A stretch of 30,135 nucleotides of DNA, taken from positions 1-30,135 of IMG/VR virus record IMGVR_UViG_3300033571_003447. One strand, written 5' to 3'. The stretch is from a virus. Made by a program: the position numbers and the translations under genes. Shown piece after piece: positions 5,260 to 18,682 of this stretch (within the stretch, counting starts at the first letter, position 1; each line of letters starts with the position of its first letter). The notes under the pieces are model-generated. The model saw only the letters and a list, made by a program, of their open reading frames with translations, was not told where the DNA came from and searched no databases.

Positions 5260-5430
5260 TTATTGTAGAGCTCCTTTGTTTTCGGAACCCTCCAAATCGA
5301 GATATTCTAATGCATAATACAAGATCGCAGCAACATCTTCTTTGAACAGTGTGTTGCTGTAGTACAACATAAACTCATCATCGTAGATGTCAATGATAAT
5401 TTTTTCTCTAGGTTCTTCAGTGCGTTTCAC
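5260..5430 (-). CDS. Small hypothetical protein (56 residues), GTG start
   Basis: This is a short leftward frame starting at a GTG inside the last codons of DNA polymerase (14-base overlap). AGGGG lies nine bases upstream. The product starts KRTEEPREKIIIDIYDDEF and continues with a helical, Tyr- and Leu-rich segment, ILYYALEYLDLEG. It fills the only gap between polymerase and SSB. A TAG lies just upstream in the same frame, so the GTG is the only standard start there. I do not recognise the family. The protein is acidic, with no membrane segment. Confidence 0.6.
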   Translation of the reverse strand: MKRTEEPREKIIIDIYDDEFMLYYSNTLFKEDVAAILYYALEYLDLEGSENKGALQ

Positions 5431-7129
5431 GCCAATTCGCCCCTATCTTGTATTCACCATCCAAGGGACAGCGAAGGTTGAAATGCTCTCCTGCTTCCAC
5501 GATAGACATTCTAGCAGCTTTTCCAGCCTCTTCAGAGATATCTTGAGGACATTCAAACTGAAATTCATCATGGACATTTGCAACTAATTTTACAGGCCAT
5601 TGATTAACCCTGATCTTATCATGGAAAAGAATCAAAGCCTTCTTCATAACAATTGCGCCAGCTCCTTGAAGTAGCGTATTGAGAGCGGCGTGCTCCGAGC
5701 GTACCCAAATCTTGCGACCATCCAACCCGGGGACATAACCCTTGTCCGCATACTTGGCAACAGTGTTACGTAGCGTCTGCAACGAGGGAGTTGAGGAAAG
5801 AAACTTGTTGATAAGCTTGGTTCCAGTAGATGCGTCACCACCAACGATGGAGCCGATCTTCGACGGCCCCGCACCGTAGAGGAAGGCATAAATAAACGTC
5901 TTCGCATCATCTCGAGTTGGTAACCCCGCAGCTTTTTGGTTGAGGGTATGAACATCTGTTCCATCCTTTGAGCTTCCTTCGCAGACTGTTTTGACATAGG
6001 TTTCATCCTTCATGTAATGAGCCAACATACGCAATTCAAGACCAGAGGCATCACAACCGACAAGAACATTACCGGAGTCAACAGTCCAACACTGACGGCA
6101 CTCAGGGCCATACAAGCTGCCTGAGTTGGGTATCTGAGCCATGTTAGGCTTGAAGTGTGTCATGCGTCCTGTAACTGCTCCGTTGGTGTTCACACGTCCG
6201 TGTACTCGTCCATCGTCTTTGACTTCATCAATCCATGATTCAATCTGAGCGATACGTTTTTGTACCAGCAGATACTCTGCAATCACCTTTGCTTCAGGGA
6301 TATCAACGGCCATTAACGTGGCTTCATCAACCATTGGTTGTCCAGTCTCTGTGAATTTCTTAGGTTTCCACCCAAGCTCCATCAACTTTTCTCCAATTTG
6401 CTTTCGAGAGCCGGGATTAAAGACAATAGTCTCATCCTTGAGTTGCTTTCCTGTTTTTTCTGAGAATCTTGAAACGGAATACGGAGGCCATCGTTGCTGC
6501 ATTTGCTCATTGATTTCTGCCAATCTTCCTTTGAGGTGAGTAAGAAGCATTGTTGCATGAGGAATGTCCAATTTAAAGCCGTTACGCTCTTGTTCATTGA
6601 TGATCATCGATACTCGGTGTTCCAAGTCGATGGACTCTTGAGAGAATTTATTCTTTGTCAACCCTTCTGAAACATGACGATATACGCTAACAAGAACATC
6701 CACGTCACGTATGCAGTAATACTCAAGCAAACCCATAATCGGAGCGTCAAAACACTCACCAGCATACTCTTGGCGTCTGTCATTCATCCACTCCCAAATC
6801 TTTGGATAGTCTACCTTGTTCGTGTTTAAACTCTTTCCGTAGCTTTCCAAGCTGTGTCCGTTCTCTCTCGTAGGCTCTAATAGACGCCCTGCTACCAGTG
6901 TGTCGAATATCTGATTCAAAGTAATCTTCGTTTTCCATAATCTGTTCAAGATCGGAAAATCGAACCCTACTCCGTTGTGAGCGATTATCTGTGTAGCCGA
7001 GCTTAGATAGTCTCTTAGGCCACTGTGATCTTTCCATACAAGGGTCTCCTGTGTGTCAATGTTCTTCGTCACGCACATCCAAATCTTGTCGTGAGCTAGA
7101 TTGGTTTCGATGTCCAGTGCAATTCTCAT
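5417..7129 (-). CDS. Family A DNA polymerase with 3'-5' exonuclease (T7-like)
   Basis: A 570-residue replicative polymerase. Exonuclease motifs: LDIETN (Asp6, Glu8), HNGVGFD (Asn52, Asp57) and YCIRD (Tyr138, Asp142). Polymerase motifs: GCDASGLELR (Asp360, motif A), RDDAKTFIYAFLYG (motif B; Lys410, Tyr414, Tyr418) and VHDEF (His520, Asp521, Glu522; motif C). Tyr414 aligns with E. coli Phe762 and T7 Tyr526, the Tyr type that accepts dideoxynucleotides and is common in lytic phages. It is shorter than T7 polymerase (704 residues). No 5' nuclease domain is present; that activity is encoded at 4122-4814. The start at 7129 lies within the end of a small coiled-coil gene. Confidence 0.96.
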   Translation of the reverse strand: MRIALDIETNLAHDKIWMCVTKNIDTQETLVWKDHSGLRDYLSSATQIIAHNGVGFDFPILNRLWKTKITLNQIFDTLVAGRLLEPTRENGHSLESYGKSLNTNKVDYPKIWEWMNDRRQEYAGECFDAPIMGLLEYYCIRDVDVLVSVYRHVSEGLTKNKFSQESIDLEHRVSMIINEQERNGFKLDIPHATMLLTHLKGRLAEINEQMQQRWPPYSVSRFSEKTGKQLKDETIVFNPGSRKQIGEKLMELGWKPKKFTETGQPMVDEATLMAVDIPEAKVIAEYLLVQKRIAQIESWIDEVKDDGRVHGRVNTNGAVTGRMTHFKPNMAQIPNSGSLYGPECRQCWTVDSGNVLVGCDASGLELRMLAHYMKDETYVKTVCEGSSKDGTDVHTLNQKAAGLPTRDDAKTFIYAFLYGAGPSKIGSIVGGDASTGTKLINKFLSSTPSLQTLRNTVAKYADKGYVPGLDGRKIWVRSEHAALNTLLQGAGAIVMKKALILFHDKIRVNQWPVKLVANVHDEFQFECPQDISEEAGKAARMSIVEAGEHFNLRCPLDGEYKIGANWRETH

Positions 7130-7992: not shown

Positions 7993-8196
7993 TTACTTTT
8001 TCCAAGGTTTATACAATGTATTGAGAGTTTCAAAGCTACCATCATCAAACTTCTCAACAACAGTGCTCGTCCTTACCGGCCCACATCCACATTTAGGATG
8101 GTCTAAGGCGTAAACATAGGCAACCTCATAAGTTACTCCTTCATACTCGTAAGGAGCAAAATCTGCACCATCAGAAAAATGAACGACAGGTTTCAT
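7993..8196 (-). CDS. Hypothetical small protein
   Basis: A 67-residue protein with an excellent GGAGG site five bases before its ATG; the start overlaps the helicase stop by four bases. The predicted strands (EGVTYEVAYVYALDHP) are followed by a KCGCGP motif and then more strands (TSTVVEKFDDGSFETL). The Cys-Gly-Cys-Gly stretch could bind metal or be a turn. I do not recognise the family. Its position directly after the primase-helicase means it is co-translated with it. Confidence 0.7.
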   Translation of the reverse strand: MKPVVHFSDGADFAPYEYEGVTYEVAYVYALDHPKCGCGPVRTSTVVEKFDDGSFETLNTLYKPWKK

Positions 8197-9794
8197 AGTT
8201 CCTCCAAAGTTACTTCCATCATTCTCCCTGTGTCTGTGTCATATTTTAATTCACAAGCAGGCCCAGTGAGTCCACAGTATCGGTTTTTAGCAACAGAGAC
8301 TTTGGTGATATGCCTCACATTGGGATCATCGGCCATAGAGTTACGCTCCAGTGTAATCACAGCGTCAGACAATTGTGCAATAGCACCTGAGCCACGTAGC
8401 TGACTCAATGACACTGCTTGTCCATCCTCATGGCCTTGATTACCATTAGGCCGCTTCAAGTGACTCACGGCCACAAGAGTTACATTCAATTCCTGCACCA
8501 GAGTACGCAGCCTAGTCATCATCTCATCAATGGCTTTACGCTCATCTCCATTATCTTGTCCAGAAACCACAATGCTGATGTGGTCAAGGAAGATCAACCG
8601 ACAATCACAAGCCTTAACCATGTACCTGATGCGGTTCAGGATGTTGTCAATATTAGTGCTCCCAAAGTGATCAAACAAATAGATTCGATCAGTCCCGAGT
8701 GTAGCATCAAAGGCGTGTTTTAACTCTTCCTCACTTACAAAAGTGTCAGGTAAATGCAACTTCTTATTTGCTTCCAAACTCATAATGCTGCGTGCAGTTT
8801 TCTTAACAGATTCTTCCAAGAACAAACCGCCTATATTCCACTTCGTTGTCTTCAAAACATGAAAGAGAATCTCACGTAAAAACTGACTCTTTCCTAAACC
8901 AGAGCCAGCAGTAACCGTGATCAACTCAGCAGGCCGCAAACCATAGAGCAACTCATTAAGACCTTTGAACGGATACATAGCCTCTGCTGGTTTTTCCGGT
9001 GTGCTTACCTCTTCCCATAACGTTGATCCTGCCACGATCCCATCAGGGACGTAGGTTTCTGCTTTCCACCAGACGGAAGACACAAATTCAGCAGAGAGGC
9101 CAGAAGCAAGGTAATCGCACGCATCTTTTTTATCCTTAATGTGTTTTGCAATCTTGGCCTTAGAACCAAACAACTCAGCCACTTCAGCAGCAGCCTTCCT
9201 GCCCGGCTCGTCAGCATCAAAGCAGATCACTACATTGTCAAAAGAATCTAACCACTCAAAACTAGCTTTACAGTCTTTCAAGGCCGCTTGAGCGCCATTC
9301 CTGATGGACACCACAGGCCATTTGGAACCCAGCATCTGGTAGCACGCCAGTGCGTCCAACTCCCCTTCAACAAGAGTAATGTATTTACCCTTCTTCGGAA
9401 AGAGGTTTTGACCAAACAATTGAGCCTTCGTCCATTGTCCTTCGACAGCGAATGTTTTGTTGGCAACATGGCGCACCTTTGATGCCACAATCATGCCGTC
9501 AGAGTCAGCATACGGATAAATATGTTTTCCATCCACCTGAGAGACTTTGAAAAACTCGCAAGTCTCCCATGTTATGCCTCGGTCAGCAATGGCTTTAATT
9601 TCACCTTGAGTTATCATAGGTATGGTTTTCTTTGGGTTAGATTGTTCTTTGGCAACGGCTTCCTCTAGCGATTCAATCGTGCCACAACTGAAGCAATATG
9701 AGTGCCCGTCAGTATATAGAGCATTGGCATCACTAGATCCACAGTGGCCACACTCTATATGCTTCAAGAACTCACTTTTTGTCTTTGTCAACAT
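8193..9794 (-). CDS. Bifunctional DNA primase-helicase (T7 gp4-like)
   Basis: A 533-residue replication protein. N-terminal zinc finger: Cys15/Cys18 and Cys34/Cys37, which in T7 recognises the priming site. TOPRIM primase: LVEGELDAL (Glu144) and FDADEPGR (Asp193, Asp195). RecA-like ring helicase: AGSGLGKS Walker A (296-303), RLIFLDH Walker B (Asp404), and the HLKRPNG and LRGSGAIAQLSD motifs that sense DNA and nucleotide. It unwinds DNA 5' to 3' ahead of the family A polymerase and makes primers. The length is close to T7 gp4 (566). The start ATG at 9794 follows AAGG and overlaps the upstream 55-residue gene by 23 bases. Confidence 0.96.
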   Translation of the reverse strand: MLTKTKSEFLKHIECGHCGSSDANALYTDGHSYCFSCGTIESLEEAVAKEQSNPKKTIPMITQGEIKAIADRGITWETCEFFKVSQVDGKHIYPYADSDGMIVASKVRHVANKTFAVEGQWTKAQLFGQNLFPKKGKYITLVEGELDALACYQMLGSKWPVVSIRNGAQAALKDCKASFEWLDSFDNVVICFDADEPGRKAAAEVAELFGSKAKIAKHIKDKKDACDYLASGLSAEFVSSVWWKAETYVPDGIVAGSTLWEEVSTPEKPAEAMYPFKGLNELLYGLRPAELITVTAGSGLGKSQFLREILFHVLKTTKWNIGGLFLEESVKKTARSIMSLEANKKLHLPDTFVSEEELKHAFDATLGTDRIYLFDHFGSTNIDNILNRIRYMVKACDCRLIFLDHISIVVSGQDNGDERKAIDEMMTRLRTLVQELNVTLVAVSHLKRPNGNQGHEDGQAVSLSQLRGSGAIAQLSDAVITLERNSMADDPNVRHITKVSVAKNRYCGLTGPACELKYDTDTGRMMEVTLEEL

Positions 9795-10675: not shown

Positions 10676-10722
10676 TTTGGCACACTTCTTGCAATACTAT
10701 AATGATTCTTTAATGTAAGAAT

Positions 10723-10956
10723 TTAAAGATATTTATAATTAAATATATCTTTAATGTCTTCGATGTCTTCATAGTCTTCAGTGGCCTCCGTGTCCGTGTC
10801 ATCGATACTCATCAAGTCTTTTCGTTCAATCACTGGTATGATGTGTTTTACATCGTTAAAACAAGCATTGCACAAATCAACAAATTCAAATGTATTTGCG
10901 TTTCTTCTAGTTGCTTCAAAATCAGTTAACAATGTGTCACAGCATCGACAATGCAT
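10723..10956 (-). CDS. Small zinc-finger protein with acidic tail
   Basis: A 77-residue protein with two CxxC pairs (Cys3/Cys6 and Cys29/Cys32) around TLLTDFEATRRN and FEFVDLC, which makes a treble-clef or ribbon zinc site. This is a recurring small phage protein type found in T7-like and other phages; the function is not known. The C-terminal half is very acidic (SIDDTDTEATEDYEDIEDIKD), like DNA-mimic or protein-docking tails. The ATG at 10956 follows GGAG with a six-base spacer; a frame extension to 10992 is rejected. It overlaps nothing and precedes an AT-rich gap. Confidence 0.75.
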   Translation of the reverse strand: MHCRCCDTLLTDFEATRRNANTFEFVDLCNACFNDVKHIIPVIERKDLMSIDDTDTEATEDYEDIEDIKDIFNYKYL

Positions 10957-12135: not shown

Positions 12136-12783
12136 TTATGCTGCTTTTTTTAGCATTATAACCTTGTTCATTTTTTTACCATGAGCAGGGTATGCAATAA
12201 CTGGCACAGATTTATCCCAGCATGCACGACAACCCGAACATTTACCGTCATTTTCATATGCATGGCATAATTTTGCGCCATTGGGGACATTATCGGCGGT
12301 CGGTGTGATAACGCTACCGTGTAACCCGTGCGTATACTCTCCCGTGATACTGTCGCTTGAGAAGCGCACCATGACATTATCAAGTTTTTGCATGTCCTGC
12401 AATACTAGGGCAAACTTCGGAAATTTATGCATTCGTGTGGGTAACCAATGCTTGCACCACGGTGTCCGAACCATTACTTCCAGCATTTTCTCTGCAAGCC
12501 CTAGGGAATACATATCGCCACTATCGAACCATCGAAAATATCGAGAATCGCCTAATGCCTTAACCATATCATCAACCCATTCTAGTCTCTGCCAGTCTTC
12601 CCGATTGTGAATTCTAGGGGCTTTTACATTGGGGTAATTATAGTTACCCGTAGTGGCATAACAGCCCTTACATGCATCCACTAGGACACCGGGCGACGAT
12701 ATCGAACCCGGGCAAGTGTCCAATGCTTGCAGAGACCATGACAGAATCCCGTCAAGTTTCGATGTTTTGCTGAGTTTTACCAT
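12136..12783 (-). CDS. Gene product 88 (GP88) family protein, cysteine-rich
   Basis: A 215-residue protein of the GP88 family known from mycobacteriophages and many other phages. Recognisable stretches are DGILSWSLQALDTCPGS, ACKGCYATTGNY, FRWFDSGDMY, WLPTRMHKFPKF, VRFSSDS and CSGCRACWDK. Cysteines fall in two groups, Cys24/Cys38/Cys41 and Cys182/Cys185/Cys188, which look like metal or iron-sulphur ligands. The biochemical role is unknown. ATG at 12783 follows AAGGA at eight bases; a frame extension to 12801 is rejected. It is third in the leftward operon, so probably an early protein. Confidence 0.88.
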   Translation of the reverse strand: MVKLSKTSKLDGILSWSLQALDTCPGSISSPGVLVDACKGCYATTGNYNYPNVKAPRIHNREDWQRLEWVDDMVKALGDSRYFRWFDSGDMYSLGLAEKMLEVMVRTPWCKHWLPTRMHKFPKFALVLQDMQKLDNVMVRFSSDSITGEYTHGLHGSVITPTADNVPNGAKLCHAYENDGKCSGCRACWDKSVPVIAYPAHGKKMNKVIMLKKAA

Positions 12784-12812
12784 TTTGTTGATCCTTAACA
12801 AGTGATTGAGGG

Positions 12813-13556: not shown

Positions 13557-13832
13557 TGCACATTAGGACAAACCCTAGGTATTGGTAACTTTACAATTCT
13601 TTACACTAGACCGATTTAAACGGCCTTGGAGCGATTATTTTGATTTAGGCCACTACACCCTTGACAAAAGATATTAACACCACAAGTAGTAGTTATCCAC
13701 AATCTTGGGTCTTATATAAGACTATAACCTGTGGATAAGTGATACATCATAGGGTATACTTGTCCACACCCTTGGATAACTTGTGGATAACTTTGTATGA
13801 AACTTTAATGAGAATCGTTATCGTTTGCTAGT

Positions 13833-13883
13833 GGTTCTCAGGTGTTACTTGTGCTAAATGATAGAGATTCTCAAGTGGTACTC
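13833..13883 (+). repeat. Imperfect 18-bp direct repeats (iteron-like)
   Basis: Copies at 13833-13850 and 13866-13883 agree at 14 of 18 positions (core TTCTCA-GTG-TACT). They lie 33 bases apart, about three helical turns. An inverted pair, GTGCTAAATGA (13851) and TCATTAGCAC (13882), overlaps them, and TCATTAGCACC recurs at 13988-13998. They sit between DnaA boxes, so an origin-binding role is plausible. Confidence 0.5.
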
Positions 13884-14105
13884 ATTAGCACCTACAACGA
13901 TCTCCCCACTGAAGTTTTCCACAGTTTACCCACAGACACTAAAGACCTACAGTGGACATCCTGTGGATAACTTTACTGACTAGTGAGTCATTAGCACCAT
14001 ATAAGTGCATGCTTATATAAGTAGTTGCTTATATGTTCTTGTGAGTGAGTGCTCACTAGGGGGGAGGGTCGCTTGAGTGAACGTTATTGTTGCTGTAGCC
14101 TCTAA

Positions 14106-14164
14106 AGCACACAAAAAAGTAAAACTAAGAAAACCAAGAGCACACAAAAAAGTAAAACTAAGAA
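14106..14164 (+). repeat. Perfect 26-bp direct repeat, A-rich
   Basis: Two identical 26-base copies at 14106-14131 and 14139-14164 share the core ACAAAAAAGTAAAACTAAG and are separated by seven bases (33-base period). A third, shorter piece, ACAAAAAAGT, follows at 14166-14175. The phased A-tracts may bend DNA or form a duplex-unwinding element beside the DnaA boxes. Confidence 0.7.
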
Positions 14165-14331
14165 GACAAAAAAGTCAGGAAAGTTGACTAATAATTGGGG
14201 ACAGAACAGATTATGTTAAGTTATTGAAAACCAAGAAGAAATAGACAATAAAAGCTATTGAGAATGAATTATCAATAAAGGGGAATCCGTGCACCTGAGT
14301 GGGCCTTTAAAGTGAAGTGTTGAAATAGTTG

Positions 14332-14360
14332 TTGACAAACACCAAGAAGTATGATACATT
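14332..14360 (+). promoter_or_regulatory. Sigma70-like promoter for the rightward block
   Basis: A perfect -35 TTGACA (14332-14337) is followed after exactly 17 bases by TACATT (14355-14360). It points toward the terminase and structural genes, whose first start codon is at 14616, leaving a leader of roughly 250 bases. It implies transcription by host RNA polymerase. Confidence 0.65.
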
Positions 14361-14499
14361 TCAGTCCATGATTATAATATTCTTCTAAGTCACTAGGGAT
14401 GAACTAAGAAGTAATAATAAAGTATACTTTAGCGATCTGCTCATGTAGTTCATTAAACCTTCATATACGTAGTTATTAATCGTTAGTCTTGTTACGGTA

Positions 14500-14544
14500 T
14501 TGTTTACATTATTTGTTTACATCAAAACTACATTAAAGTATATA
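14500..14544 (+). promoter_or_regulatory. Second rightward promoter with repeated TTGTTTACAT
   Basis: TTTACA (14516-14521) and TATATA (14539-14544) are separated by 17 bases. The sequence TTGTTTACAT occurs twice (14500-14509 and 14513-14522), a 13-base period that overlaps the -35 and could be a regulator site. It lies 72 bases upstream of the first structural gene. Confidence 0.5.
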
Positions 14545-14615
14545 GGGGTATAGAAGAAAATTATAATTGTTTGTCTAAAATTTAATGTTTTGTCTATCTC
14601 CAAATAAGGATAAAG

Positions 14616-15020
14616 ATGGAAGAAGTGCAGAAACCGAAGAAAAGGGGTCGTCCCCCTAAAAGCGATCTTGTTGCAGTAAAAAACAAGAATCGTGGGGTCA
14701 TGGGGCGTCCCAAGGGCGATACGGCGATTATCAATGAATACAAGCAACGGATGCTTGCTTCGCCCAAGAGTGCCAAGGTGCTTGAAGCTATTTATGATGC
14801 TGCTTTGAATGATGAGCATAAGAACCAAGCAGCGGCGTGGAAATTGATTGTCGATAGGATTGTGCCTGTGTCTGTCTTTGAGCAGAACAAGGGTGGTGGT
14901 GGAACACCTCAGATCAGCATCAATATCAGTGGTTTAAATTCTCCTACGGTTGAGGCTGAGGAAGTGCAGATGGATATTGTGGACGTAGAACCACGAGAGG
15001 TTGAAGATGACAACGCTTAA
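14616..15020 (+). CDS. Probable terminase small subunit
   Basis: A 134-residue protein directly before the large terminase, overlapping it by 14 bases. The N-terminus carries two AT-hook-like basic motifs (KKRGRPPK and GRPKG) able to touch the DNA minor groove. Next comes a helical region (AIINEYKQRMLASP, VLEAIYDAALNDEHKNQAAAWKLI), then a Gly-rich linker and an acidic tail (DVEPREVEDDN). Small terminases bind the packaging site and hand DNA to the large subunit. Sequence identity among small terminases is low, so the call depends mainly on position. AGGA lies five bases before the ATG. Confidence 0.72.
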   Translation: MEEVQKPKKRGRPPKSDLVAVKNKNRGVMGRPKGDTAIINEYKQRMLASPKSAKVLEAIYDAALNDEHKNQAAAWKLIVDRIVPVSVFEQNKGGGGTPQISINISGLNSPTVEAEEVQMDIVDVEPREVEDDNA

Positions 15021-16266
15021 CTTCTCGTTGTTGAAGTGGCAACAGATGGTCTTCAAGGATAAGACACGATTCAAGGTTGTGGCTGCTGGGCGTCGATGTG
15101 GTAAGTCAAGACTATCTGCGGTAAGTTTGTTGATTGAGGCTTTGAACTGTCCTGATGGTTCCAGTGTAATGTATATTGCACCTACGCTCGGGCAGGCCAG
15201 AACGATTATCTGGGACATGCTCCATGAGCTTGGGCGTCCTGTGATTAAGTCTAGCCACGTCAACAATCTGGAGATCACGCTCGTTAATGGTAGGAAGATT
15301 CTTGTACGAGGCGCTGACAACCCTGACAGTCTTCGTGGTGTGTCTTTAACCTTTGTGGTGTTGGACGAATGTGCGTTTATTAAAGAGGATGTATGGCAGA
15401 AGATCATCCGAGCCTCTTTGAGTGACAAGAAGGGTAGAGCACTGTTTATCTCCACCCCTAGTGGGCGTAACTGGTTCTACGATGTATTTAAGTTAGGTCA
15501 AGAGGGTTCAGACGAAGAGTGGAAGTCTTGGCACTTCACGACTCAAGACAACGAGACCATTGACCCAAAAGAGATCGAGAATGCAAAGAAGACTTTGAGC
15601 AGCTTTGCGTTCAAACAGGAATATTTGTCGAGCTTTGATACCGCTGGTGCGGATGTCTTTAAGGAAGAGTGGTTCAAACTTGCAGCCGAGCCTGACTTTG
15701 GTACTTATTTTGTTGCTGTTGACTTGGCTGGTTTTGAGGATGTAGCCAAGAGTGCTGGTAGTACAAAGAAGAAGCTTGATGAGACTGCAATTGCAATAGT
15801 CAAACTGAAAGAAAACGGAGACTGGTGGGTACATAGCATTGAGCACGGTCGGTGGGACATTCGTGAGACTGCGGTAAACATCTTGAAGGTCATCCGAGAC
15901 TTTCAACCAAGTGGGCTAGGTATTGAGCGAGGAGCCTTGAAGAATGCTGTGTTGCCTTATTTAAACGATTTAATGAGGAAGAACAACATCTATGCACATA
16001 TTCATGATCTCACGCACGGTAATAGGAAAAAGGCTGACAGGGTTATCTGGAGTCTTCAAGGGCGTCTGGAGCATGGTCGAATCAGCTTTAATGAAGACCA
16101 AGACTGGGATGAGTTCTTGGATCAACTCATCATGTTCCCTACCGCTGGCGTGCATGATGACTTAGTGGATGCCTTGAGTTACATTGATCAGTTGGCCATA
16201 GCTAACTACAACGTGGACTACGAGGATGAAGATTATGAAGTTTTTGATCCAATTTCTGGGTACTAA
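15007..16266 (+). CDS. Terminase large subunit
   Basis: A 419-residue DNA-packaging motor and nuclease. ATPase: VVAAGRRCGKS (24-34, Walker A), YIAPTLGQAR (Q-motif-like), FVVLDECAF (Walker B Asp120, catalytic Glu121) and FISTPSG coupling motif. Nuclease: FVAVDLAG (Asp239) and DDLVDALSY near the C-terminus, the acidic pair of the RNase H-like fold. This is the usual layout of large terminases. The ATG at 15007 follows GAGG with a six-base spacer. A frame extension two codons upstream uses TTG and is less likely. It is followed without a gap by a small basic protein gene. Confidence 0.95.
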   Translation: MTTLNFSLLKWQQMVFKDKTRFKVVAAGRRCGKSRLSAVSLLIEALNCPDGSSVMYIAPTLGQARTIIWDMLHELGRPVIKSSHVNNLEITLVNGRKILVRGADNPDSLRGVSLTFVVLDECAFIKEDVWQKIIRASLSDKKGRALFISTPSGRNWFYDVFKLGQEGSDEEWKSWHFTTQDNETIDPKEIENAKKTLSSFAFKQEYLSSFDTAGADVFKEEWFKLAAEPDFGTYFVAVDLAGFEDVAKSAGSTKKKLDETAIAIVKLKENGDWWVHSIEHGRWDIRETAVNILKVIRDFQPSGLGIERGALKNAVLPYLNDLMRKNNIYAHIHDLTHGNRKKADRVIWSLQGRLEHGRISFNEDQDWDEFLDQLIMFPTAGVHDDLVDALSYIDQLAIANYNVDYEDEDYEVFDPISGY

Positions 16267-16425
16267 ATGAAACAAGGCTTGTACGCAAACATCAATGCCA
16301 AGAGGCAACGCATCAAGGCTGGTAGTGGCGAGAAGATGCGTAAACCCGGCACTAAAGGGGCTCCTTCGGCGCAAGACTTCAAGGATGCGGCTAAAACCGC
16401 CAAGAAAGTAAAAAAGAATGGCTAA
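16267..16425 (+). CDS. Small basic conserved-type phage protein (52 residues)
   Basis: This starts on the base after the terminase stop and overlaps the portal gene by eight bases. The product, MKQGLYANINAKRQRIKAGS, then GEKMRKPGTKGAPSAQDFKD and AAKTAKKVKKNG, is very basic and without a hydrophobic core. I recall similar peptides of unknown role next to portal or capsid genes in other phages. It could bind DNA or be packaged in the head (inference). Confidence 0.75.
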   Translation: MKQGLYANINAKRQRIKAGSGEKMRKPGTKGAPSAQDFKDAAKTAKKVKKNG

Positions 16426-18682
16426 AGACCCACGACTGGAGCGAGCAGGCGTATCTGGCTATAACAAGCCCAAACGCACTCCTAACCACCCCACCAAGAG
16501 TCACGTTGTTGTGGCCAAGGATGGTGATGAGGTAAAGACCATTCGTTTTGGTCAACAAGGCGTTTCTGGCTCTCCTGAGGGTAGCGCCCGTAACAAATCT
16601 TTCAAAGCACGCCACGCCAAGAACATCGCCAAGGGAAAGATGAGTGCGGCGTATTGGGCAGACAAAGTTAAATGGTGGGACTTAATGGAAAACGAAAAAG
16701 AATACCACAGCACGGAGTTCGATGAGCCTACTGAGTCTGACAAAGAACTGGTAAGCTTTGTATCCGAGCATATCACCCGTTGGCGTGATTATCGTGACGC
16801 TAATTACGCTGATGCTTGGGATGAGTACGAGCGTATCTTCCGTGGTAAGTGGGATGCTTCTGACAAGACCCGTGAGTCGGAGCGTAGCCGTATTATCTCT
16901 CCTGCCACGCAGCAGGCGGTGGAGACCCGCCACGCTGAGATCATGGAAGCAATCTTTGGTCAAGGGGACTACTTCGACATCAAGGATGATATCCTTGACT
17001 TGAACGGTAATCCACTTGATATTGAACAGATCAAAGCTCAACTCAAAGAAGACTTTGACAAAGACAAAATCAAGAAAGCTATCGATCAGATCGAGTTGAT
17101 GGCTGAAATCTATGGTACAGGCATTGGTGAGATTGTTGTCAATCCTAAGAAAGAGTATGTCCCTGCCACTATGCCGATTCCCGGCGTTGTAGGCCCTGCT
17201 GCTATTGGGGTGCAGGAGAAGGATCGTATCTCTGTTCAGATCAAGCCTGTGAACCCCCGCAACTTCCTGATTGATCCTAATGCAGACAGCATTGAAGATG
17301 CGATGGGTTGCGCTATTGAGAAGTATGTGTCTATCCACAAGGTTGTTGAGAACATTGAGCGTGGTGTGTATCGCAAAGTTGATATTTCGTCTACTTACGA
17401 TGACACAGAGCTTGAGCCAACTCAAGACCCGCAGAACTTTCAAGATAACAAAGTAAAACTCACGACTTACTATGGTCTTGTGCCTCGTGAGTATTTGGAA
17501 GGCGATGAGGCTGAATATGAAGAGCTATTCCCTGAAGGCTCTGAGGGTGACGAATACTGTAACCTTGTTGAAGCCATTGTCGTTATTGCCAATGACAGTC
17601 AATTGCTGAAAGCTGAAGCCAATCCGTACATGATGAAAGATCGTCCTGTGGTGGCTTATCAAGACGATACCGTTCCCGGACGTTTCTGGGGCCGTGGAAC
17701 CGTTGAGAAGGCTTACAATATGCAAAAGGCTATTGATGGTCAATTGCGTGCTCATATGGACTCTGTGGCCCTTACAACGGCCCCTATGGTGGCGATGGAC
17801 GCTACCCGACTGCCTCGTGGCGCTAAGTTTGAGATTAAGCCCGGTAAAGCTATTTTGACCAACGGAAACCCGTCAGAGATTCTGCAACCGTTTAAGTTTG
17901 GTCAGACAGATGGGACTAACATCCAAACCGCCCAAAACTTTGAGCGTTTGTTGTTGCAAGCCACTGGTACGGTTGATGCCTCTGGTATGCCCACCAACGT
18001 TCCTCGTGATGCTGGTGCTTCAGGGATGTCGATGGTATTGGCTGGGATCATCAAGAAGTACAAACGTACTTTGAGTAACTTCCAAGAAGACTTCCTGATT
18101 CCGTTCATCGAGAAAGCTGCGTTCCGGTATATGCAGTTTGACCCTGAGCGTTATCCTTCAACGGACATGAAGTTTATCCCGACAGCTACGTTGGGCATCA
18201 TGGCTCGTGAGTACGAACAACAGCAATTGATTGCTTTGTTGCAAACGCTAGGCCCTGATACTCCGGTGTTGCCTGTTATCCTCAAAGGTATCTTGCAAAA
18301 CTCTGGTCTCTCCAACCGTGGTGAAATGATTGCTATGTTGGAGCAGATGAGTCAACCGAACCCTGAGCAACAAGCGGCCCAGCAACAGGCTATCCAACTT
18401 GATATGCAGATCAAGCAGGCACAGGCTATGGAAATACAAGCCAAAGCACAGAAAGAGCAGGCAGAGGCTCAAAAGGCCACTATCGAGGCTCAATTACTGC
18501 CTGAGAAGCACCAAGTTGATATTATTCAAGCTGCTGCCACGAACATTGATCGTTCAGATGACTTTGACAAGCGCCTGAAACTGGCTGATCGTATGCTTAA
18601 GGAGCGTGAAATTAACCTCAAAGCAGCCGATATAGCCTCTAATGAGCGTATTGCTGGCTTACAAATGCTAAGAAAACAATAA
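16418..18682 (+). CDS. Portal protein with an extra N-terminal small-protein domain
   Basis: A 754-residue protein. From about residue 90 it reads as a podovirus portal: SEHITRWRDYRDANYADAWDEY, NPRNFLIDPNA, the long central wing/stem region with PVVAYQDDTVPGRFWGRGT, and a Gln/Glu/Ala-rich coiled-coil end (630-754). Portals form the dodecameric DNA gate. Residues 1-88 resemble a separate small basic phage protein (RFGQQGVSGS, KSFKARHAKNIAKGKMSAAYW). An internal ATG at 16685 follows GGTGG, so a 665-residue portal could also be made. The C-terminal barrel region is helical, as in P22-type portals. Confidence 0.85.
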   Translation: MAKDPRLERAGVSGYNKPKRTPNHPTKSHVVVAKDGDEVKTIRFGQQGVSGSPEGSARNKSFKARHAKNIAKGKMSAAYWADKVKWWDLMENEKEYHSTEFDEPTESDKELVSFVSEHITRWRDYRDANYADAWDEYERIFRGKWDASDKTRESERSRIISPATQQAVETRHAEIMEAIFGQGDYFDIKDDILDLNGNPLDIEQIKAQLKEDFDKDKIKKAIDQIELMAEIYGTGIGEIVVNPKKEYVPATMPIPGVVGPAAIGVQEKDRISVQIKPVNPRNFLIDPNADSIEDAMGCAIEKYVSIHKVVENIERGVYRKVDISSTYDDTELEPTQDPQNFQDNKVKLTTYYGLVPREYLEGDEAEYEELFPEGSEGDEYCNLVEAIVVIANDSQLLKAEANPYMMKDRPVVAYQDDTVPGRFWGRGTVEKAYNMQKAIDGQLRAHMDSVALTTAPMVAMDATRLPRGAKFEIKPGKAILTNGNPSEILQPFKFGQTDGTNIQTAQNFERLLLQATGTVDASGMPTNVPRDAGASGMSMVLAGIIKKYKRTLSNFQEDFLIPFIEKAAFRYMQFDPERYPSTDMKFIPTATLGIMAREYEQQQLIALLQTLGPDTPVLPVILKGILQNSGLSNRGEMIAMLEQMSQPNPEQQAAQQQAIQLDMQIKQAQAMEIQAKAQKEQAEAQKATIEAQLLPEKHQVDIIQAAATNIDRSDDFDKRLKLADRMLKEREINLKAADIASNERIAGLQMLRKQ

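Follow-up and report, generated by a model that had tools for sequence, protein, structure and literature searches.

The junction between the two gene blocks of an uncultured marine phage carries an array of DnaA boxes which is real, widespread and exchanged between phages. The window analysed here, a stretch of 30,135 bases, is part of a larger podovirus-like genome, and the lineage bearing the array is a family of uncultured marine phages. We read the array as a docking site for the host initiator DnaA at the genome junction, most likely used to start or boost replication, and give this reading a probability of roughly 40%; a terminal role other than that of an origin is its close rival.

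The boxes lie, as the initial annotation had stated, between divergent gene blocks. The ORF-free gap (13564..14615) separates a leftward block of early and replication genes from a rightward block of packaging and structural genes, a layout shared by the relatives. Exact copies of the box TTATCCACA are found at 13693..13701 (+, B1), 13730..13738 (-, B2), 13782..13790 (-, B4) and 13962..13970 (-, B7), and nowhere else in the 30,135 bases. These four copies, in both orientations between 13693 and 13970, had been reported before, together with one single-mismatch copy. The exact copies were found again, and the count of one proved wrong for the single-mismatch variants, of which three are present: B3 (TTGTCCACA, 13760..13768, +), B5 (TTTTCCACA, 13915..13923, +) and, 11 bp behind it, B6 (TTACCCACA, 13926..13934, +). 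In addition, a weak half-site with two mismatches (TTATCCAAG, 13771..13779, -) stands 11 bp from B4, leaving 2 bp between the two boxes; the 11-bp spacing within the window is limited to this pair (13771/13782) and to 13915/13926. The order kept in the alignment with relatives is B1 (+), the palindrome TCTTATATAAGACT, B2 (-), B3 (+), B4 (-) and the weak box next to B4. At the place of B2 the aligned relatives have TTATACACA, TTATGCACA or TTATCAACA, at that of B3 most of them have the exact TTATCCACA, and B6 is exact in L005, a relative with 95% TerL identity. Such clustering, as expected of an oriC-type region, exceeds chance in the window array as well as in those of relatives. When the 1,052 bases of the gap were dinucleotide-shuffled 20,000 times, exact copies averaged 0.015 and never exceeded 2, and in the whole window TTATCCACA and the overlapping AGTTATCCA are the sole 9-mers to reach four copies inside 300 bp.

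The gene content places the phage close to T7 in one respect only. The leftward block encodes ribonucleotide reductase, ThyX, a 5'-3' exonuclease, a family A DNA polymerase resembling T7 gp5 (5417..7129, -; PF00476, 2.1e-52) and a primase-helicase resembling T7 gp4 (8193..9794, -; DnaB_C 2.9e-27, Toprim, Helic-prim_T7_N). The rightward block starts with a 134-aa ORF in the small-terminase position (14616..15020, +), which lies upstream of the terminase large subunit gene, overlaps it and matches no family, and continues with TerL itself (15001..16266, +; phrog_2, 2e-49), portal, major capsid and tail proteins. Relatives that map circularly measure about 35-38 kb, with end overlaps of 127 bp (G003, G004, G009, G012) or 221 bp (G015), and in them the two blocks point away from each other at the gap and towards each other on the opposite side of the map. 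A single-subunit RNA polymerase (PF00940) was found neither in the 30-kb window nor in the records of 16 relatives, five of them circular, in a search whose control, HTVC019P, matched at 4e-106. Therefore, the Autographiviridae features present are the T7-like primase-helicase and the family A polymerase, the phage's own RNA polymerase was not found, and this is not a true T7-type phage; of the earlier description as a T7-like phage with an added host-type origin, the T7-like replisome stands and the phage type does not. Transcription would probably be carried out by the host RNA polymerase, which fits the sigma-70-like promoters upstream of the terminase genes: the window has a rightward one at 14332..14360 (+; TTGACA-17-TACATT, 10/12, with TG before the second hexamer), and G005 and G009 have the consensus TTGACA-17-TATAAT at the equivalent place. 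No phage-encoded DnaA gene was found in the window or its relatives, and a TerL search of 84,980 genomes, made to find the host, returned no relative. As a separate observation, residues 3-86 of the portal ORF (window 16424-16675) match a small protein that is separate in P12053L, CRP-5 and CRP-4, cobaviruses and related Roseobacter phages. The identity, 83-91%, is far above that of other genes and would reflect either a recent exchange or a strongly constrained module.

Conservation in relatives had been proposed as a check on the array, and of 34 non-redundant relatives, 19 do have DnaA boxes in the same gap ahead of TerL. Within 1.4 kb on the upstream side of TerL, the commonest 9-mer is TTATCCACA itself, with 59 copies distributed over 19 of the 34 non-redundant regions. 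Moreover, a scan of 2.9 million viral contigs that made no use of homology returned at least 120 stretches with the tandem pattern TTATCCACA-NN-TTATCCACA as against 2 for the reversed pattern; this phage group accounts for 25 of them, 22 of which come with TerL or the ORF before it. The array-bearing members span 49 to 95% TerL identity, and among the clusters tabulated the array is always upstream of the terminase genes. The richest array (L207) has 11 exact boxes, 34 distinct spacing signatures were counted, and the orientation relative to TerL shows no conservation across the group. Judged by these sequence comparisons, the array is under selection.

This conservation of place goes together with frequent gain and loss. 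On the TerL tree, 12 changes in box content were counted against 12.2 for shuffled labels, and identical TerL proteins occur on phages with and without boxes, so the array must be dispensable for some sisters. The explanation lies in the exchange of a cassette made up of the array and the first early genes. In the pairs compared, an identity of 87-94% breaks off 836-1027 bases upstream of TerL, either at a conserved core or to its left. Past this breakpoint similarity resumes, where it does at all, only further left (at about -3.5 kb for L081 and G011), the array thus moving as one unit with some 2.5 kb of early leftward genes. In G001, the nearest relative of the window, likeness extends through the array. 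Among relatives lacking boxes, other repeat arrays are significant in G011, L009, L041, L057 and L082 and not in the others, so that a general replacement repeat is not established; in G011 and L009, repeats of the TATGTCTTA type occupy the position of the array. A phage-encoded initiator was also sought in the cassettes without boxes, and the ten proteins compared with Pfam (eight from these cassettes and two from the window) matched only GP88 and TreK. The GP88-family protein (PF17338) of the window lies in the early region at 12136-12801, is present also in the cassette of the box-lacking G011, and has look-alikes in G005 and G014.

As to the nature of the sites, the substitutions that they tolerate are those of DnaA boxes. 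Single-mismatch variants near exact boxes have their mismatch at positions 3 and 5 in 21 of 26 cases and never at positions 2, 7, 8 or 9, while mismatches in the rest of the genomes are spread over the positions. The DnaA-box consensus TTWTNCACA, which tolerates the same positions (PMC5835720), covers 13 of the 26 variants near boxes as against 24 of 171 elsewhere (Fisher p 9e-5), the variant TTGTCCACA (7 of the 26) falling outside it. Furthermore, same-orientation spacings in the group cluster at 11, 19-23 and 29-33 bp, that is, in helical phase; since the 11-12 bp class is enriched by the search pattern itself it was left out of the test, and the phasing holds without it, with none of 3000 random sets matching. 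The boxes of oriC are arrayed on one face of the helix by the same logic (PMC4451416), and at group level the arrays show this oriC-type feature, one-face phasing with boxes spaced by 2 bp. The flanks, too, favour a G before and a G after the box, as in R1 and R4 of the E. coli oriC record. Taken together, the substitution tolerance, the helical spacings and the oriC-like flanks make it very probable that host DnaA binds the array in vivo. That the sites are instead operators of a phage protein, merely resembling DnaA boxes, is highly improbable: flanking bases are partly conserved outside the 9-mer and some box-lacking relatives bear other repeats at the same place, as operators might, but an asymmetric 9-mer with DnaA-like tolerated positions and oriC-like flanks would not be expected of them, nor would the recurrence of these sites in unrelated phages, microviruses and Autographiviridae among them.

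The gap holds further elements around the array. The palindrome TCTTATATAAGACT between B1 and B2 (13710..13723) is conserved, also in the box-lacking G005 and G011, and its inner part CTTATATAAG (13711-13720) has a second copy at 14012-14021 and recurs in the gaps of many relatives. To the right, a core GGGGGGAGGGTC ... GTAGCCTCTAAAGCACACAAAAAAG (14059..14119, +), just left of which the exchange breakpoints fall, is kept with or without boxes; taken as GGGGGGAGGG...AGCCTCTAAAGCACACAAAAAAG, it is retained in nearly all relatives and is possibly a packaging or terminal signal. Immediately ahead of the array, the relatives' alignment marks a conserved block CCCTTGACAAAAGATATTAACACC (13658..13681, +), the predicted candidate for a physical terminus, and at a comparable place contig ends of sister clades begin with 5'-CCC[TC]A. 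Six such contig ends, at about -872, -938 and -1021 from TerL, were counted against 0.22 expected; as three of them share one sequence, they represent four lineages, of which two (L342 and L391) have boxes downstream of the end, and the ends of L310/L312/L313 and of L314 are without exact boxes. The cobaviruses offer the same layout, their ORF-free region between two modules being a direct terminal repeat (PMC6775973). The initial annotation had left the terminus out of account, and should be amended in that the gap is probably also a genome end: for the window's clade we predict, as a likely arrangement, that the junction is a physical terminus with a direct terminal repeat or concatemer junction.

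This brings in the closest competitor of the replication-start reading, namely that the array belongs to the direct terminal repeat and serves the genome end without being an origin; it might, for instance, be a roadblock or a signal during DNA entry, in end protection or bridging, or in concatemer processing. A blastn search with one array led to three cultured Autographiviridae that have arrays in their direct terminal repeats: Shigella phage vB_ShiP-A7 (4 exact boxes, L292:22-135), Enterobacter phage phiEap-1 (5 in a 195-bp repeat, L290:71-174) and Klebsiella phage ZK1 (6 in a 292-bp repeat, L291:19-198), and these arrays fill much of the repeats, that of A7, 177 bp long, having been mapped experimentally (PMC8427288). 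Like the window, the three phages have exact boxes, 4 to 6 in number and in some cases next to near-consensus ones, between terminase and early genes; their boxes share one orientation, with many spacings near 11, 21 or 30 bp. They differ in encoding an RNA polymerase, in having repeats known from their records where the terminus of the window is predicted, and in orientation, which in the window is mixed. The literature searched gave no report of DnaA arrays in T7-type terminal repeats, and the A7 paper is silent on DnaA (PMC8427288). Seven boxes of G015 also lie inside its 221-bp end overlap, and the sister-clade ends and the cobavirus layout point the same way, as does the left terminal repeat of T5, whose injection stop signal has been described with repeats, palindromes and DnaA boxes (PMC13250531); T5, however, is an unrelated large siphovirus, likened here by description and weak blastn hits, and the role is putative there too. 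Nevertheless, the contig ends of the window's own clade, 37 of 67 of which fall within 1.5 kb upstream of TerL, are scattered and pile up at no single point, the orientation of the array relative to TerL is not conserved, and T7, T3, SP6, K1-5 and KP32, like phiYeO3-12, are free of boxes over their first 700 bases. Some of the sisters with CCC[TC]A ends bear arrays and others do not. A purely terminal role is a serious possibility, though on balance an unlikely one.

The cobaviruses (SIO1, P12053L) and phages of the HMO-2011 type resemble the window in that two modules meet at an ORF-free gap and in their primase-helicase and family A polymerase, SIO1 also lacking an RNA polymerase (PMC6775973), and the portal of the HMO-2011 types is similar, whereas their terminase and capsid belong to another group. 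P12053L showed no DnaA-box cluster, nor did HTVC103P and HMO-2011 within their first 50 kb.

Regarding replication itself, the initial proposal of a DnaA-dependent phage origin is supported in part: strongly for the binding of DnaA, and with mixed evidence for the origin step. The cumulative GC-skew minimum of the window does lie in the gap, as the proposed check anticipated, but it coincides with the change of gene direction, and sister genomes without boxes have their minimum likewise in or near the gap, for which reason GC skew was rejected as proof of an origin. In common with E. coli oriC, the group has exact R-type boxes whose context is GTTATCCACAG-like, and beside them weaker boxes, in some cases with gaps of 2 bp and on one face; unlike oriC, the arrays are without an AT-rich opening element on the expected side, since neither this nor a DnaA-trio showed any bias to the ACA side (20 of 49 arrays positive), and the AT-rich DNA nearby in the window gap is not directional relative to the array. 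Besides, Autographiviridae with their own RNA polymerase carry arrays too, so that the array is not necessarily the main origin. In favour of a replication start count the orisome-like layout, the unstable DNA in the gap (which holds 4 of the window's 12 least stable 51-mers) and the fact that a phage in which no RNA polymerase was found must begin replication by other means. Within the window, stability is lowest at 10698-10748 and 14534-14584; L009 has an AT-rich element upstream of TerL, of which an inverted copy lies on the early-gene side, about 4.1 kb before TerL. If the array does start replication, DnaA would occupy the exact boxes first and the weaker, helically phased boxes next, and would open or mark the DNA at the ORF-free junction. 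The phage's own primase-helicase would then load there, loading of host DnaB not being expected in a phage so equipped, which is a difference from E. coli oriC, and the family A polymerase would extend, a phage RNA polymerase being dispensable.

Two other uses of DnaA binding are both rather improbable. The array, multiplied by phage copy number, might soak up host DnaA and so halt host initiation, as clustered high-affinity boxes (up to 11 exact, in L207) would allow; strong titration of DnaA is described for the E. coli locus datA, where 2 consensus boxes are joined by 4 one-misfit boxes (PMC5835720) and which, like the array, clusters such boxes outside an origin. Unlike datA, however, the phage array is phased and sited at the phage junction, and sequestration alone would require neither helical phasing nor a fixed site by the terminase genes kept over 49 to 95% TerL identity, the sites moreover numbering merely some 4 to 7 per genome here. 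Alternatively, DnaA in this divergent promoter region could time the early leftward or the rightward genes read by the host RNA polymerase. Bacterial DnaA doubles as a transcription factor (PMC8203912). The rightward promoter within the gap and the joint transfer of the array with early leftward genes would suit such a switch, but the last box is some 360 bp from that promoter and no clear leftward promoter overlaps the boxes. Moreover, known DnaA-regulated promoters need fewer sites than the many phased ones present here.

Marine podoviruses of this sort are common, the origin of T7 is transcript-primed, and we know of no settled account of how T7-like replisomes start in phages without an RNA polymerase. 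An array fixed in place over such a range of terminase identity, yet swapped among near-identical terminases, is a concrete candidate for the replication start. Our tentative proposal, which we regard as possible but doubtful, is that arrays at terminal-repeat junctions are a recurrent, horizontally swapped module, which in phages without an RNA polymerase replaces the transcript-primed origin; if so, unrelated podoviruses, with or without that enzyme, would bring host DnaA to the junction of their genomes. Since cultured enterobacterial phages have such arrays in their terminal repeats, a role in origin, genome end or sequestration can be tested in laboratory strains. Finally, in a microvirus, bajarodmic virus 162, five exact DnaA boxes with 11-12 bp spacing stand directly behind the replication initiator gene (L289:277-331).
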